Part shown: positions 6,471 to 22,865 of the stretch, in pieces | Numbering within the stretch: the first letter of the stretch is position 1 | Layout of the letters: every line of letters begins with the position of its first letter | Virus record (IMG/VR): IMGVR_UViG_3300025012_000291 | Location: 1-22,865 of that record | From: a virus | DNA length: 22,865 nucleotides | Direction: 5' to 3' (one strand) | Position numbers and translations under genes: made by a program | Notes under the pieces: model-generated | What the model was told of the DNA's origin: nothing | Database searches by the model: none | The model's input: only the letters and a program-made list of their open reading frames with translations

Positions 6471-6599
6471 ATGAATAAAAAAGGTATGGGTAAATATTGT
6501 TGTCATCCTGACTATGAAAAAGCCGGTGGTAATGAATATATAAGTAAATGGATATGTATAACATGTAAATCAATATTATATAAAAAGGAGATTAAATGA
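6471..6599 (+). CDS. tiny putative zinc-binding protein (42 aa)
   Basis: ATG after TTGAGGTATAAA, stop TGA overlapping the recombinase start (ATGA). Cysteines and a histidine are arranged as YCCHPDYEKAGGNEY ... WICITCK, giving a CC-H plus CxxC set that could bind one zinc ion. It ends in KKEIK, whose codons (AAAAAGGAGATTAAA) form the ribosome binding site of the tyrosine recombinase. It may be a recombination directionality or accessory factor by position alone; function unknown. Confidence 0.65.
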   Translation: MNKKGMGKYCCHPDYEKAGGNEYISKWICITCKSILYKKEIK

Positions 6600-7147
6600 T
6601 TAAGAGAAAGAACGAAAGAGATAAATACTTATTAAAAGAGGAATATATAAAATTCATAAATACTTGTCCTGATAAGTATAGGTTATTTTGGGAGGTGATA
6701 TTTAATGCGGGTTTAAGAGTTAGTGAAGGTCTTAATATTACGGGTCAGGATATAATTTGGAATGAAAACAAAATCATTATCAAGACTTTGAAAAGAAGAT
6801 ATCACCCGGCCATACCTGTAATTGTGCCACAACGAATTATCGAACAGATGAAATTATATAAAGAAAAAAAACAAATTGATGGTAGGTTATGGACGTTTTC
6901 GAGACAGTTTGCATGGCAACTCTTTAAGAGGATATGTATAAAGGCAGGTTTAAATGCTGAGTATAGTCCGCACGCATTAAGACACGCCCACGGGGTAATG
7001 ATTGCAGATATTACCAATGGTAACGTGTCTCAAATCAAGGATCGTTTAAGGCATTCAAGCACTAAGTCCACGGAGTTTTATATCCATGTATCTGAGAAAA
7101 AACAAAAGGAATTATCTCAAAAAATATCAGATTACATGGAGGTTTAA
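6596..7147 (+). CDS. compact tyrosine recombinase/integrase (183 aa)
   Basis: The catalytic signature of phage-integrase-family recombinases is complete: R41 (GLRVSEG), K66 (KTLKRR), H126-x-x-R129 (HALRHAHG), H153 (RLRHSS) and nucleophile Y162 (TEFYIHVS). At 183 aa it has the catalytic domain but only about 10 residues before it, so the usual N-terminal SAM-like core-binding domain and any arm-binding domain are absent; integrases are usually 300-400 aa. Such short forms occur in invertase-like and minimal recombinases. Two identical dif-like cores (307-336 and 7661-7690) flank the module in direct orientation, so this enzyme could excise or exchange it. The start is fixed by AAAAAGGAGATTAAATG. 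Confidence 0.93.
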   Translation: MIKRKNERDKYLLKEEYIKFINTCPDKYRLFWEVIFNAGLRVSEGLNITGQDIIWNENKIIIKTLKRRYHPAIPVIVPQRIIEQMKLYKEKKQIDGRLWTFSRQFAWQLFKRICIKAGLNAEYSPHALRHAHGVMIADITNGNVSQIKDRLRHSSTKSTEFYIHVSEKKQKELSQKISDYMEV

Positions 7148-17400: not shown

Positions 17401-20400
17401 TTAGTATCCAAATATCTCTTTTGTTTCAATTGTATTATACCAATCCAATCCTATTGTTGAGGATATTTCAAGTGGTACATTTAACATAAAATCAAATTCT
17501 TTAACTGTCATTATCTCAGACATCTCTTCATACGCATATTTAGCATCCTCCTCTTTCACACAAATAACTATTTCATCGTGACAGTTGAGGTATACCCAAT
17601 AACCTCTTTCTACCAATTTATTCATTGCTCTACATACTATAGAACTTGAACTATTATGTACAATAAAATTATTTGCCATAAACCTACCACTTTCTGAATT
17701 AATTATATCATACATATCAATATATTCATCTGTAATATCAATTGATTCAATTGTCTCTGTTCTTCTTATAACCTCTGTTATTTTTTTTATTTCAATATTT
17801 TGTATTTTTTGCTGTTTTGTGTTATTCAGAAAACCTATTTCGGTTATAAAGGTTTTACAATCTTTTTTTCTAATTGATAGATTAGTTCTTTCTTTCATTT
17901 TATTTAATCTACTTTGAATACCAAATAGAAGTAGAGCATGTTGAATTTCATGTGCCATTTTTTCTGATAACTTTGGGAAATTTTTACCAAAACAAAGAAC
18001 TATATTATCCTTATTAATAGTACCATCACCATCAAAAATACCTTGCAAAAAACCCCTTAAACATTCTTTATTTCCCCAAATCCAAGTAGGTATCTCTTTT
18101 CTTAAATATTTAATCCTATGCACTAGTTCAAAACAAAATATATTTATTTTCCATATTTTTTGATTTCTATTCTTTCTTATTATTTCATAAATAGAAGGCT
18201 TACTTATTAAACTAATTTGTTCAATTAAATAATTTAAAATATTCTTTTCATGTTCAGCTATAATCCAACTAAGTTGACCTTTACCTTTTTTATATTCTAT
18301 TGACCCATCCGTAATTAATCGCCCTAAAATTACACCCAAATTAAAATCCGATAGTGACTCAAAATTAAAATAATTCTTATTTGGTGCAATTCTTTTTAAT
18401 AATCTACTTTCTACATAATTAGGTAATTGTAACTTATTATTTATTTGTTCTACCTTATCCGATAGTCTAATTCTTATATTCTTATAATTCTTTCCCTGTA
18501 ATTCTCTCGCAGTTTTCCAAATCTCAGATCCCTGCGTATTAACATAAAGTAATTTATGATCTGGACTACATTCAAAAATTTGACCATTCTGAAATTTTAT
18601 TTTTACTTTTTGTTTTTTCCCTGAATAAGCACAAGAAGCCTTAACATATTTTTTACCATCCCATATTTCAATATCTTTTTCCCTTATACAATCTTTAATA
18701 TCTATAAATCCTTTGTCTTTGATATATATTTTAGATTCCCCACTTATACAGCCTTGCACAGGCGTGTTAAGTATTTTATTAGTTGTTAATGGTGCGTATC
18801 TCCTACGGCCAGGAGGTATTTCTACATATCTTTTTTTATTATAAATTTTTAAAACCTCGTTTTGCCATATCTTTATTTCAGGATATTCGTTAAATAATTT
18901 ATCATATAATTGTTGTGCATGTTCTATAGAAATACCAAGTCTGTTAGCGGTAGATTTAGGTGTAGAACCATAAAAAGTAGGAAATACAAAACTACTTTTT
19001 GCATTAAATCTTAGTAATTTTAATAATTTTTTATCCGCATTCTTTATAACTTCTTCACCATAGATTTCTATCGCTTTACCATAATGAATATCATAACCAT
19101 CTATTATGGCTTTAATAAGATTTGTACAATTACTTAATGCTGCTATTATTCGGGCTTCTAATTGTCCTTCATCCGCAATTAATAATACATGACCAGGTGG
19201 TGCACAAATCAATTGTCTTATCTCTGGATGCTTTCTCTTATCTAAATTTTGTAAATTCAGATTATTGGATGAATTATGTACACATATTTCATTCGCAATA
19301 AAATTATTTGTATCTTCAACTTCGATATCATAAACAGGTACTTCTTGATCGAGATATTCTATACTTGTTATGTAATGGTTATATTTATTACCCCATTTTA
19401 TAGATATATTCATAGCCAACACACTATCCATCACAGATAAATTTTTTGCTTCAATATATTCACCTGACGCTAATCTTACTTTATGCTCAGGAGTTATATC
19501 TGTAAAGCCTTGTTTTCTACTACCACTACCTCTCCAGTGTAATCTAATTACTTTCTTTATTCCGGTTTGACCTGTCCATATTACTTTTTTTAATTTTAAA
19601 TTTAATTCATCATCAAAAGTATAAACAAAATCATTTACTTTAATATCTTCTATATTTATACCATCTGGATGAACTGATCTATCACAAATAGTTTGTATCT
19701 TTGTTCCTTTAGCTATACAAAGCCTACCTGTCTCTACAAAATAAAAATTAGTATGATACTTGCCATCTGGATAAACACATTCTGTATAACTCTTGAGCAT
19801 TTTACTTTCAGCACCACTATATTCTCTGTACTGAAGTAAAAGATCACAAAATAAACTACCTCTTTCAGAGAACTTATTTAATACCTCTTTATCAATTGAA
19901 ATATTACCCCGCTTAGTTTTTTTAAATGATAACTGATGCTCAATATCGAATAATATAATAGGTATATCTTTACTATTAGAATTTAATAATGGTTTTCTTC
20001 CGTGTATTGAGGTAAAAGTTTTTATACAATCCAATAAAGCAATATCGTTTTCTATTTCTTCCTTTTTCGCTGTAAATATTTTTAGTAAATTATGCCTACT
20101 ATCAGAATTAGTACATGCACCATCGAATTGCATCTTAGCTATTGATCGTGCAGTTCTTATCTGTTCGTAATATTGTTCTTTTAATTTCTTGTCATTATCT
20201 AAATAATTACTTTGTATATTATATAATCTATGTTCAAATATTGTATCTGTCCCATTATATTCAAGTAGCTCATCCACTGATATTTGTGTTAAATTACTCA
20301 TTATATGTTGAGGGTATTTTTTCCATCTAACACCAAAAGTAGCAAAGGCCAAAAAATCAAGATTCATAGTACCACGTCTACAATCTAATATATATTTTTG

Positions 20401-21384
20401 TAGCATAGTATCTTCTAAATCCTTTAACTGGATACCAAACATAGCTAATGACCATTCAGATTCAAATATAAGATTATGTATTATCTTTGTTATGCCATCT
20501 TTAGCTAATAAACTTTTTAACTTATCAAGGATAGTCTTTTCTTGAATATCGCTCCAGTATTTTATCTTTGTATAATGATCATAATAACTAACAGGGAATG
20601 TATAAGATATATTTTCATCAAAAGATATCGCAACGGATAATATACATGAATCAGGAAAATAAGGCTTAGTACCTATCGTCTCAAAATCAATAGTAAATTT
20701 ATTATATTTAATAACTATATTATCAAAGAAGTCTATAACCTCATTGAATTTTATTAATTTTTTTATCTCATAGGATTTATTCTTAGGAATACTTAATTTA
20801 ATTAACTCAGGAACTATGGAAAGATTTTCTCTTAAAACTCTCAATGTATCGGTATAATTAGTCTGTTTATCCCAATATTTTTCATCCCCCGGTATACCAT
20901 CATCTATAACTTTTTGTGGATTATATGTTGGAACTATCCAACAATTAAGATCATGTGATGGTATCTGCCATCCAGTCCACCCATGAATACCAGGTTCTGA
21001 TTGATTAAACAAAGATTTAAGAGAAGAATTACCACAAGCAATTATTACTTTAGGTTTAGCTTTTTTAATATCAATTAAAACTTTATTTCTACAAATATTT
21101 ATATAAGTATCAGTCGGCTCATCCCCCTCTTTAGGTTTACAATTAACTGCTCTATAATATCTAATCCTTGATTGATCAATACCTAATTGTCCCAATAAAT
21201 GAACAATTAGGTATATGGGTTTATTCAATAGAGAAGACTTTCCCATCAAATCCTCTCTATTAGAAGGGTACTCATTAAGAATATAAACATCTGGTGTATC
21301 ACTACCTATTGCAGGGATATCAATAGATTTACACCCCTTATGCAAATCACAATTTCGACAAATATCTTCTTCAAATAAGAACAT
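17401..21384 (-). CDS. polA: UDG-fused family A DNA polymerase with two inteins (1327 aa precursor)
   Basis: Domains in order: a family-4 uracil-DNA-glycosylase-like domain (1-165) with iron-sulfur cysteines C9, C12, C82 and C98; a 3'-5' exonuclease (D233-x-E235, N304, Y376-x3-D380); and a PolA palm/fingers domain with motif A ADEGQLEAR (D738), motif B R792-x3-K796 ... YG, and motif C CHDE (H1269-D1270-E1271). Two inteins interrupt it: 556-704 after TGRL and 879-1244 after NTPVQG; splicing would leave an 812-aa enzyme. The glycosylase HP motif is altered (TYNPQ), so it may only bind uracil. SPO1-type phage polymerases have a similar UDG fusion. The start overlaps the clamp stop (TAATG) with no separate ribosome site, so translation is probably coupled. 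Confidence 0.95.
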   Translation of the reverse strand: MFLFEEDICRNCDLHKGCKSIDIPAIGSDTPDVYILNEYPSNREDLMGKSSLLNKPIYLIVHLLGQLGIDQSRIRYYRAVNCKPKEGDEPTDTYINICRNKVLIDIKKAKPKVIIACGNSSLKSLFNQSEPGIHGWTGWQIPSHDLNCWIVPTYNPQKVIDDGIPGDEKYWDKQTNYTDTLRVLRENLSIVPELIKLSIPKNKSYEIKKLIKFNEVIDFFDNIVIKYNKFTIDFETIGTKPYFPDSCILSVAISFDENISYTFPVSYYDHYTKIKYWSDIQEKTILDKLKSLLAKDGITKIIHNLIFESEWSLAMFGIQLKDLEDTMLQKYILDCRRGTMNLDFLAFATFGVRWKKYPQHIMSNLTQISVDELLEYNGTDTIFEHRLYNIQSNYLDNDKKLKEQYYEQIRTARSIAKMQFDGACTNSDSRHNLLKIFTAKKEEIENDIALLDCIKTFTSIHGRKPLLNSNSKDIPIILFDIEHQLSFKKTKRGNISIDKEVLNKFSERGSLFCDLLLQYREYSGAESKMLKSYTECVYPDGKYHTNFYFVETGRLCIAKGTKIQTICDRSVHPDGINIEDIKVNDFVYTFDDELNLKLKKVIWTGQTGIKKVIRLHWRGSGSRKQGFTDITPEHKVRLASGEYIEAKNLSVMDSVLAMNISIKWGNKYNHYITSIEYLDQEVPVYDIEVEDTNNFIANEICVHNSSNNLNLQNLDKRKHPEIRQLICAPPGHVLLIADEGQLEARIIAALSNCTNLIKAIIDGYDIHYGKAIEIYGEEVIKNADKKLLKLLRFNAKSSFVFPTFYGSTPKSTANRLGISIEHAQQLYDKLFNEYPEIKIWQNEVLKIYNKKRYVEIPPGRRRYAPLTTNKILNTPVQGCISGESKIYIKDKGFIDIKDCIREKDIEIWDGKKYVKASCAYSGKKQKVKIKFQNGQIFECSPDHKLLYVNTQGSEIWKTARELQGKNYKNIRIRLSDKVEQINNKLQLPNYVESRLLKRIAPNKNYFNFESLSDFNLGVILGRLITDGSIEYKKGKGQLSWIIAEHEKNILNYLIEQISLISKPSIYEIIRKNRNQKIWKINIFCFELVHRIKYLRKEIPTWIWGNKECLRGFLQGIFDGDGTINKDNIVLCFGKNFPKLSEKMAHEIQHALLLFGIQSRLNKMKERTNLSIRKKDCKTFITEIGFLNNTKQQKIQNIEIKKITEVIRRTETIESIDITDEYIDMYDIINSESGRFMANNFIVHNSSSSIVCRAMNKLVERGYWVYLNCHDEIVICVKEEDAKYAYEEMSEIMTVKEFDFMLNVPLEISSTIGLDWYNTIETKEIFGY
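17653..18750 (-). mobile_element. polymerase intein 2 with LAGLIDADG homing endonuclease (366 aa)
   Basis: Residues 879-1244 of the polymerase precursor. It starts CISGESKIYI and ends NNFIVHN, followed by Ser. Splicing block B SPDH is at 940-943. The endonuclease has two LAGLIDADG helices, ILGRLITDG (1019-1027) and LQGIFDGDG (1113-1121), with acidic residues D1026 and D1120 both intact, so both splicing and homing may be active. It sits in the conserved NTPVQG/S motif of the PolA fingers-palm junction, where imprecise loss would kill the enzyme. Confidence 0.93.
19273..19719 (-). mobile_element. polymerase intein 1, mini-intein without endonuclease (149 aa)
   Basis: Residues 556-704 of the polymerase precursor. 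It begins CIAKGTKIQT, has block B TPEH (631-634) and ends VPVYDIEVEDTNNFIANEI then CVHN before Ser. C1, block-B His, penultimate His and terminal Asn are all present, so self-splicing is expected. At 149 aa it has no LAGLIDADG or HNH domain. Inserted between TGRL and SSNNLNLQN, a primer-template-binding motif of PolA. Joined exteins restore TGRLSSNNLNLQN. Confidence 0.93.
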
Positions 21385-22427
21385 TATACTATGACTGCTA
21401 TTATTATTTCAAATGAATCATTAGTATTATCACATTTAATTAATTTAATATCCTCTTCTTTATTCTTATATAACTTTATAGAATTACATATCTGAGAAGC
21501 GTCCTTTATATATCTTGAATTTAATTTAAAATTAATTGCATCTTCAGAACTATTTTCAATATTTATAAATTCACTGATGTTGTCACAACTCAGTTGTAAA
21601 TTATCTTTTGTTATATCAAATAATATATACTCACTAAATTTGTCTACCCTATCAAAGATACTTTGTACCTCAGAATCAATACTTATAAAAATAGGAATAA
21701 GTTCTTTATCATTAAATATATTTGAAAAATTAGGCATAGTAACATCTGACGATGGATGCCAATATTTTAATGCACCACCGGATAATAAAAACCCCTTTTC
21801 ATATATTTTAATCTCGGTAAAATAATCCTTAAATTTTATCATAAATTTAATACATTCAATAGGTATAAAACAATTAATTGTATCATCCACAATATTTATA
21901 CTTTTATAAATAGCAGACCTATCTGTACTATACATAGCACCTCTATTAAAAAATATACCATTCAAATGTGGAAAGGTTTTACTACAATATTTAATAGCAG
22001 TGGTTAAATTACTCATTAATTTATCTGTTATTTGAATGGTTTTAAATTCACTATTACATAAATTATCAAGATCAATAGCAGGAAATTCGGAATTTTTAAT
22101 TGATTTAAGAATAAACTTATTCTTTTTACCATACCTAATAATAATATTATTATTAGTATCCTGCTCAAAAAGAATTTCATCATCATCAGATAAAGTACCT
22201 AAAAACTTTGTCAAATCAGAACTCAAAATACATCCTATAAAAGATTTATATGTACCAGAAATATCCGATACCTCAGCTATTGATGTCCCATTATAGGATT
22301 GAATTTTATAATTGTCTTCCGATATAGCTACAAAATTCAGAAATTCATAATAGATAATAAGATTATTAGACTTTACAGCATTAAAAGCAGGTACTTCAAT
22401 CAATTTTTTCAAATCCGATACTTTCAT
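21384..22427 (-). CDS. dnaN: sliding clamp, DnaN/beta-like (347 aa)
   Basis: Length and pattern fit a beta clamp: an N-terminal helix MKVSDLKKLI, FPAIDLD (115-121) at the start of the second domain, and STDRSAIYK (167-175) in the place of the bacterial TDGHRLA motif, followed by repeating strand-rich sequence to the end. Divergent from cellular DnaN, and the C-terminus (EIIIAVIV) lacks the usual MPM-R-L. It would encircle DNA and hold the polymerase encoded immediately downstream (one-base TAATG overlap). AAAAAGGGGATTAA precedes the ATG. The assignment is supported by its place before polymerase and clamp loader. Confidence 0.85.
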   Translation of the reverse strand: MKVSDLKKLIEVPAFNAVKSNNLIIYYEFLNFVAISEDNYKIQSYNGTSIAEVSDISGTYKSFIGCILSSDLTKFLGTLSDDDEILFEQDTNNNIIIRYGKKNKFILKSIKNSEFPAIDLDNLCNSEFKTIQITDKLMSNLTTAIKYCSKTFPHLNGIFFNRGAMYSTDRSAIYKSINIVDDTINCFIPIECIKFMIKFKDYFTEIKIYEKGFLLSGGALKYWHPSSDVTMPNFSNIFNDKELIPIFISIDSEVQSIFDRVDKFSEYILFDITKDNLQLSCDNISEFINIENSSEDAINFKLNSRYIKDASQICNSIKLYKNKEEDIKLIKCDNTNDSFEIIIAVIV

Positions 22428-22487
22428 TTAATCCCCTTTTTAAAATGAAAAATTGTTAATTATCTAATATCTTGTTCTCATCCCTTG

Positions 22488-22496
22488 ATTATAACA
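22488..22496 (-). promoter_or_regulatory. extended -10 promoter of the clamp-polymerase operon
   Basis: Minus strand TGTTATAAT (22496-22488): consensus -10 with the TGn extension, 61 bp before the clamp start codon. No good -35 is seen 16-18 bp upstream, as usual for extended -10 promoters. It begins 4 bp after the 20-bp stem of the structured element. Confidence 0.65.
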
Positions 22497-22500
22497 TTTT

Positions 22501-22632
22501 ATTAAATATTGGGATACATATAAGAAGGCTAAAGCAATAGTGGCTCCTATCCGTGAGGTGCTTTAACGAGGTGAACGCCCCGACTAATTTCCGCCTATTC
22601 TTCATAGGTTACTATGTATCCCAATATTTAAT
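22501..22632 (-). ncRNA. candidate structured RNA between primase and clamp
   Basis: A perfect 20-bp inverted repeat (22501-22520 with 22613-22632) closes a 92-nt interior that is clearly richer in G+C than the flanks. Folded by eye on the minus strand, the interior gives a hairpin CGGGG-CGUUCA-CCUCG, a helix UAAAGC/GCUUUA enclosing GAUAG-GAGCCA-CUAUU, and either CCUAU-GAAGA-AUAGG or a longer pairing of AAGAA-UA-GGC with GCCUUCUU. Two helices contain G-U pairs on the minus strand that would be A-C mismatches on the plus strand. Its own promoter lies just upstream. No class is recognised; it could be a regulatory leader, a replication primer or origin RNA, or a palindromic mobile remnant. Confidence 0.6.
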
Positions 22633-22633
22633 T

Positions 22634-22662
22634 AATCTATCATTTATTTATTAAATTGTCAA
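22634..22662 (-). promoter_or_regulatory. promoter for the structured RNA
   Basis: Minus strand TTGACA (22662-22657), 17-bp spacer ending TGA, then TAGATT (22639-22634): a perfect -35 and a TGn-extended -10. The -35 lies within the last codons of the primase gene. Transcription would begin about 22627, inside the 5' arm of the structured element. Confidence 0.65.
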
Positions 22663-22865
22663 TATCTATTTTTGTTAAATCCGCAGGGTCTTTATCCGCA
22701 TAAGGGATTCTAATAGCTTTTACATTTATAAATGTTGATAAATAATTTGCTATTTCATTGGCCTCTTTCCATGTATTATTATTTTCCAAATCATTATCAA
22801 ATAATATAATAGTCTTCTTAGCATTCAATCCTATAATAAGTTTTAATTGTTCCTCAGTAGTTTTA
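22640..22865 (-). CDS. dnaG: DnaG-like primase, C-terminal part (partial)
   Basis: The frame is open to the window edge, so only about the last 74 residues are seen and the start is outside. KKTIILFDNDLENNNTWKEA carries the D-x-D of a TOPRIM domain and YADKDPADL its second conserved acidic motif, as in DnaG-type primases. It ends at TGA 22642-22640. Being truncated, a primase-helicase fusion cannot be excluded. Primase directly upstream of clamp, polymerase and loader completes a replisome cluster. Confidence 0.78.
   Translation of the reverse strand, partial: KTTEEQLKLIIGLNAKKTIILFDNDLENNNTWKEANEIANYLSTFINVKAIRIPYADKDPADLTKIDIDNLINK

Follow-up and report, generated by a model that had tools for sequence, protein, structure and literature searches.

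An uncultured, AT-rich phage has, between its primase and sliding clamp genes, a short non-coding segment closed by perfect inverted repeats. We asked whether this segment acts as a structured RNA or is an inverted repeat of significance only at the DNA level. The window analyzed here is the whole virus record (IMG/VR IMGVR_UViG_3300025012_000291; 22,865 bp), which has a G+C content of 27.5% and a non-coding share of 7.4%. A preliminary description of the locus had proposed a promoter-driven RNA with several internal helices.

The primase-clamp gap contains a non-random inverted repeat

The gene products around the segment and the parts of the inverted repeat itself are as follows.

22640..22865, minus strand: DnaG-type primase, its C-terminal 74 aa (the gene runs off the contig; phrog_47, E=1e-5)
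21384..22427, minus strand: DnaN-like sliding clamp (347 aa; phrog_947, E=1e-15)
17401..21384, minus strand: PolA-type DNA polymerase with two intein insertions
22501..22632, minus strand: whole hairpin element, 132 nt, comprising a 20-bp closing stem and a 92-nt interior
22613..22632, minus strand: 5' arm of the closing stem, 5'-ATTAAATATTGGGATACATA
22501..22520, minus strand: 3' arm of the closing stem, 5'-TATGTATCCCAATATTTAAT

Gene identification thus agrees with the preliminary description in placing the element beside a primase, a clamp and a PolA-type polymerase. Reading along the minus strand, the end of the primase gene (stop codon TGA, 22642-22640) is followed by a 212-bp gap that holds the element, then by the DnaN-like clamp and PolA with its two inteins, and beyond PolA by genes for a clamp loader, an SSB-like protein, a UvsX/RecA recombinase and SbcC/D-like proteins. 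The primase fragment is 38-44% identical to the primases of related phages. The PolA insertions are a mini-intein near residues 556-704 and a LAGLIDADG-bearing intein near residues 879-1246, both absent from the polymerases of the relatives.

An inverted-repeat search recovered the perfect 20-bp stem around a 92-nt spacer that had been described (arms 22501-22520 and 22613-22632); the arms can be extended to 23 nt at 96% identity. This is the longest exact inverted repeat of the contig, the runner-up having 15 bp. In 100 dinucleotide shuffles of the whole contig, with loops of up to 200 allowed, the longest exact arm was 16 bp, and the 20-bp repeat is therefore not due to chance. The element is real and non-random. 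Its interior is also set apart by composition, as had been noted earlier: the G+C content is 46.7% against 27.5% for the contig, a value reached by only 0.11% of the contig's 92-nt windows. A single minus-strand ORF of 38 aa runs through the interior; its score is lower than those of the contig's genuine coding fragments, and codon usage rules it out as a gene.

Inverted repeats of about 20 bp are typical of invertible promoters, and the contig encodes an integrase/tyrosine recombinase (6596-7147). A recombinase of this kind might flip the interior by way of the 20-bp repeats. We consider this very improbable: a promoter was looked for in the interior and none was found, 92 bp is short for an invertible segment, and the recombinase gene lies 15 kb away.

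Two further repeats in the window are of separate interest. The dnaN start codon and an AAGGGG ribosome site lie within a minus-strand hairpin (22422-22450) formed by an 8-bp inverted repeat, TTTCATTT/AAATGAAA, which might serve as a translational operator; it was not evident by eye in the sequences upstream of the relatives' dnaN genes. Tandem repeats occupy the left end of the contig (1-306): a 33-bp unit, TATCAGGTCTTCTGGTCTTCAGAATATCCGGCA, is repeated 5.4 times, and there are in addition a sub-repeat of 17 bp and a repeat of 30 bp. These precede a strong promoter at 417 and could be iterons or mark an assembly break at a repeat.

A promoter abuts the stem

Three promoter motifs of the minus strand bear on how the element might be transcribed.

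22657..22662, minus strand: -35 hexamer TTGACA, within the last primase codons
22634..22642, minus strand: extended -10, TGATAGATT; its TGA doubles as the stop codon of primase, and the +1 is predicted at 22627
22488..22496, minus strand: possible second -10, TGTTATAAT, which has no -35 and is a frequent motif in the contig

The upstream promoter claimed to stand directly ahead of the element is borne out by motif matching. It is the best promoter of the minus strand, correctly placed and of sigma-70 type (TTGACA-17-TGATAGATT), with TTGACA at 22662-22657, a 17-nt spacer, TAGATT at 22639-22634 and the TG of the extended -10 at 22642-22641, and 2 nt separate its end from the stem. A perfect TTGACA combined with a good -10 occurs at only four sites in the contig (417+, 3899+, 4698+ and 22662-), all of them just ahead of genes and on the coding strand. 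The second promoter that had been proposed, TGTTATAAT at 22496, fared less well. TGnTATAAT occurs eight times in the contig, mostly within genes, and the copy after the element, with no -35, does not rise above this background. Nor was a terminator found after the element, between it and dnaN, and the idea of a stand-alone transcript is accordingly not borne out.

Since the predicted +1 falls 5 nt inside the stem, an RNA initiated at this promoter would keep 15 of the 20 pairs, and all 20 would form only in read-through transcripts. At the level of sequence, a potential stabilizing stem (15 bp after the predicted +1) and a potential RNase III substrate (20 perfect pairs in read-through RNA) are thus both present.

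The structural signal comes from the closing stem

The whole element folds more stably than shuffled sequences, with z=-4.5 on the minus strand and z=-2.5 on the plus strand. Taken alone, the 92-nt interior does no better than its shuffles on either strand (z=+0.33 minus, z=+1.04 plus), and the signal therefore comes from the closing stem alone. With an interior z of +0.33, the element lacks the stability beyond composition, interior included, expected of a structured RNA class, and the several interior helices described earlier do not exceed chance. The following interior features are predictions of the folding model that have no statistical support.

22594..22608, minus strand: hairpin A, CCUAU-GAAGA-AUAGG, no better than shuffles
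22568..22581, minus strand: hairpin B, GGGG-CGUUCA-CCUC, no better than shuffles
22528..22567, minus strand: arm C, predicted only, with a possible three-way junction of AAAGCA/UGCUUU with CC-UCAC-GG and AUAG-GAGCCA-CUAU

The three-way junction of arm C belongs to a suboptimal fold (-19.3 against -19.6 kcal/mol). The preference for the minus strand that had been read from G-U pairs also falls away. The stem is entirely Watson-Crick, with zero G-U pairs and zero bulges; it is identical on both strands and so cannot distinguish between them, and the interior is significant on neither. A perfect Watson-Crick stem fits inverted repeats that act at the DNA level at least as well as it fits an RNA stem under selection.

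Searches for homologues return only the element itself

The impression that the element belongs to no known RNA class was upheld by Rfam, no family of which matched the window at its gathering score. A permissive scan gave chance-level matches only, such as SQ1002_RNA at 14.1 bits against a gathering score of 128. No tRNA or tmRNA was detected. BLASTN against phages and plasmids found no homologue, the only matches being AT-rich and promoter-like (two microvirus intergenic regions and one unannotated phage). An exact 20-mer and an exact 16-mer from the interior were each absent from IMG/VR; another 16-mer occurred there at seven unrelated loci, including two ordinary terminators (AAAGCACCTCACGGTGCTTTTTT). 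A covariance model built from the single sequence and run against 110 loci, six virus records and four bacterial genomes recovered only the element itself and one chance hit (E=1.6). The inverted-repeat pair TTGGGATACATA-N70-100-TATGTATCCCAA had no match in 84,980 GTDB bacterial and archaeal genomes. Used as a single query, the clamp protein matched nothing among phages and IMG/VR, and a second genome scan with PolA gave distant relatives only.

As no second copy of the element was found, covariation and conservation are not measurable, and as no relative was found, a new RNA class cannot be claimed. The element appears, as far as the collections show, to be restricted to this phage lineage.

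Two other long inverted repeats occur in other phage contigs, a perfect 23-bp repeat with a 147-nt spacer at locus L048 (279-471), the 3' arm of which includes the likely start codon of the next gene, and a perfect 29-bp repeat with a 128-nt spacer at locus L038 (11878-12063). Their contexts differ from that of the element and their sequences are unrelated to it, and both were rejected as relatives.

The element resembles the phi29-type packaging RNA (RF00044) in size, in its paired ends and in its predicted multi-helix interior, but that RNA belongs to phages with protein-primed replication, whereas this phage replicates with DnaG, DnaN and PolA. Identification as a packaging RNA was dropped: RF00044 matched neither the contig nor its four nearest relatives, a search in which the controls were silent as well.

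Related phages carry other cargo in the same interval

In gene order, the replication module is similar to those of two phages, Edwardsiella phage ZHS and Vibrio phage SSP002, with proteins that are about 30% identical. The nearest relatives are four IMG/VR contigs (L091-L094), with polymerases 51-52% identical to PolA outside the inteins. BLAST and the single-sequence covariance model, applied to the whole records, showed the element to be absent from all four. Three of them have a NUMOD/HNH-type ORF between primase and clamp and the remaining one has two other ORFs; the type was assigned by sequence resemblance, Pfam HNH/NUMOD3 being found only for a second such ORF located after polA on the contig of L091. 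The NUMOD/HNH-type ORFs of the interval overlap both neighboring genes or nearly so. Cargo ORFs of the interval were located at:

L091, 4480-5100
L094, 8391-8954
L092, 7891-8950

Because the relatives carry different ORFs here and lack the element, the primase-clamp interval is best described as a cargo site. The interval of our phage was also considered as a remnant of the relatives' endonuclease ORFs, an idea discarded for want of protein similarity.

A site that accepts insertions, as the NUMOD/HNH-type ORFs of close relatives without the element indicate, suits the main rival to a leader or small RNA, namely that the element is a DNA-level inverted repeat, a MITE-like or other small non-autonomous insertion in a permissive intergenic site, with no phage function beyond carriage. 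Like MITEs, the element has perfect terminal inverted repeats (20 bp perfect, 23 bp at 96%) and a short non-coding interior of foreign composition. It differs from them in having no known parent element and in being present only once in the contig, where a MITE would be expected in multiple copies. No other copy was found in GTDB genomes (by the end pattern), phages or plasmids, an absence that falls short of proof. There is also no clear target duplication, the ends lying in AT-rich sequence with a palindromic TTAA, and the promoter abuts the stem exactly. On balance we regard such an insertion as unlikely, although it is an explanation to be taken seriously.

The absence of the element from four relatives with the same replication genes bears also on the origin or primer role proposed earlier. 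At the DNA level, an extruded or exposed hairpin could serve as an origin, as a primosome site or as a primer site; alternatively, RNA made from the promoter could prime replication. Genes for primase, clamp, polymerase, clamp loader, SSB and recombinase surround it, and an origin might reasonably be laid out as a large hairpin that has a promoter at its base. However, GC skew shows no switch here, although the contig ends about 200 bp away and the other side is unreadable; over the contig its sign goes with the strand of the genes and reverses, near 7.4 kb, only where the genes turn round. There are no iterons around the element, and its arm motif matches at chance level. With no positive support, a role in replication at this site seems improbable.

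At least five TTGACA-N16-TATACT sites occur in G001, the closest of the long relatives, most of them shortly upstream of small ORFs. The presence of similar promoters in G001 indicates that the TTGACA-type promoter is in use in the clade. Five near-identical promoters of the form TTGACA-N16-TATACTAATAAT lie at 35242, 35638, 37798, 42537 and 45831 (loci L120 and L121), and probably form one coordinated set. A further promoter (TTGACAATTTAA...) is located just after polA.

As a check on the method, a fold scan of the non-coding gaps of relatives recovered a true tRNA-Gln in G001 (L119:11011-11085); it has the anticodon TTG and is adjoined by a TATATACTATATAC tandem repeat. At L119:19881-19960 G001 also has a promoter-led 66-nt RNA candidate with three hairpins (z=-3.5; Rfam matches at chance level only), which are enclosed by a 7-bp closing stem, GCGGTCA...TGACCGC. 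The plan is similar to that of the element, but the two have no sequence in common and the covariance model does not match the candidate, which on these comparisons would be a lead and not a homologue.

This second promoter-led, three-hairpin candidate lends some color to the idea that the element is a new class of structured phage RNA whose targets, in trans, would be mRNAs of host or phage or a host defense, in a role comparable to that of lambda PreS or OOP. Such an RNA might have its own promoter in the replication operon, be freed by RNase III and act on replication or on the host. The promoter, the G+C-rich, multi-arm predicted fold and the lack of an Rfam family are in keeping with this. 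Against it, the interior is not above shuffles, no homologue was found, the G001 candidate is unrelated in sequence and unmatched by the model, and antisense pairing with the contig's own genes gives no signal, duplex energies with its 36 translation starts being no different from those of shuffles. We judge a trans-acting RNA class to be improbable, and a phage-specific RNA freed by RNase III equally so.

Discussion

The reading we favor, tentatively and as a possibility that falls a little short of probable, is that the element is a promoter-driven structured leader or small RNA that heads the dnaN-polA transcription unit. The stem is far above chance, the whole element folds at z=-4.5 on the minus strand, the promoter abuts the stem, the interior is non-coding and G+C-rich, and dnaN follows with no intervening terminator; stable RNAs are often G+C-rich in AT-rich genomes. 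Against this reading, the interior is no stabler than shuffles, no homologue was found in the collections searched, even where the polymerases are 52% identical, and there is no antisense signal.

In a leader of this kind, the sigma-70-type promoter overlapping the primase stop codon would start a minus-strand RNA at about 22627. The first 15 nt of the transcript would pair with bases lying about 107-121 nt further downstream. The 5' end of this RNA would thus be double-stranded, and after a multi-arm interior richer in G+C the transcript would run on, without a terminator, into dnaN and polA. The paired 5' end may shield the clamp and polymerase message from 5'-end-dependent decay. The uninterrupted 20-bp duplex, which would form in RNA reading through from primase, is a candidate for cleavage by RNase III, and a cut there could separate the primase mRNA from the clamp/polymerase mRNA and free an RNA of about 100-130 nt. 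Both steps draw on known nuclease behavior: RNase E acts more slowly on RNAs with a base-paired 5' end, and duplexes free of interruptions tend to be cut by RNase III (PMC3997798).

The nearest parallels to such a leader are the ompA-type leaders with a 5'-terminal stem, which the element resembles in its paired predicted 5' end, and the intergenic hairpins processed by RNase III, which like the element place an uninterrupted duplex between two genes of the same strand. The ompA-type leaders have a small loop, whereas the predicted stem of the element closes around 92 nt with several predicted arms. Among phage RNAs, the OOP RNA of lambda ends at a terminator, and none is seen after the element. 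The element is like lambda OOP and PreS as a predicted small, promoter-driven phage RNA in a replication context, with no sequence or Rfam relation to either. PreS is a lambda small RNA that targets the host dnaN, and OOP comes from the lambda replication region (PMC12197685). PreS thus acts on a host gene, whereas the element merely adjoins the phage's own dnaN.

At present the element is an orphan candidate, mainly useful as a seed should a second copy appear. If it is an inverted-repeat insertion, the primase-clamp gap of these phages accepts non-coding cargo besides endonuclease-type genes. If it is a functional RNA, it would join a small number of phage RNAs known from within replication operons, and would allow a direct test of how expression of a phage's primase is uncoupled from that of its clamp and polymerase.
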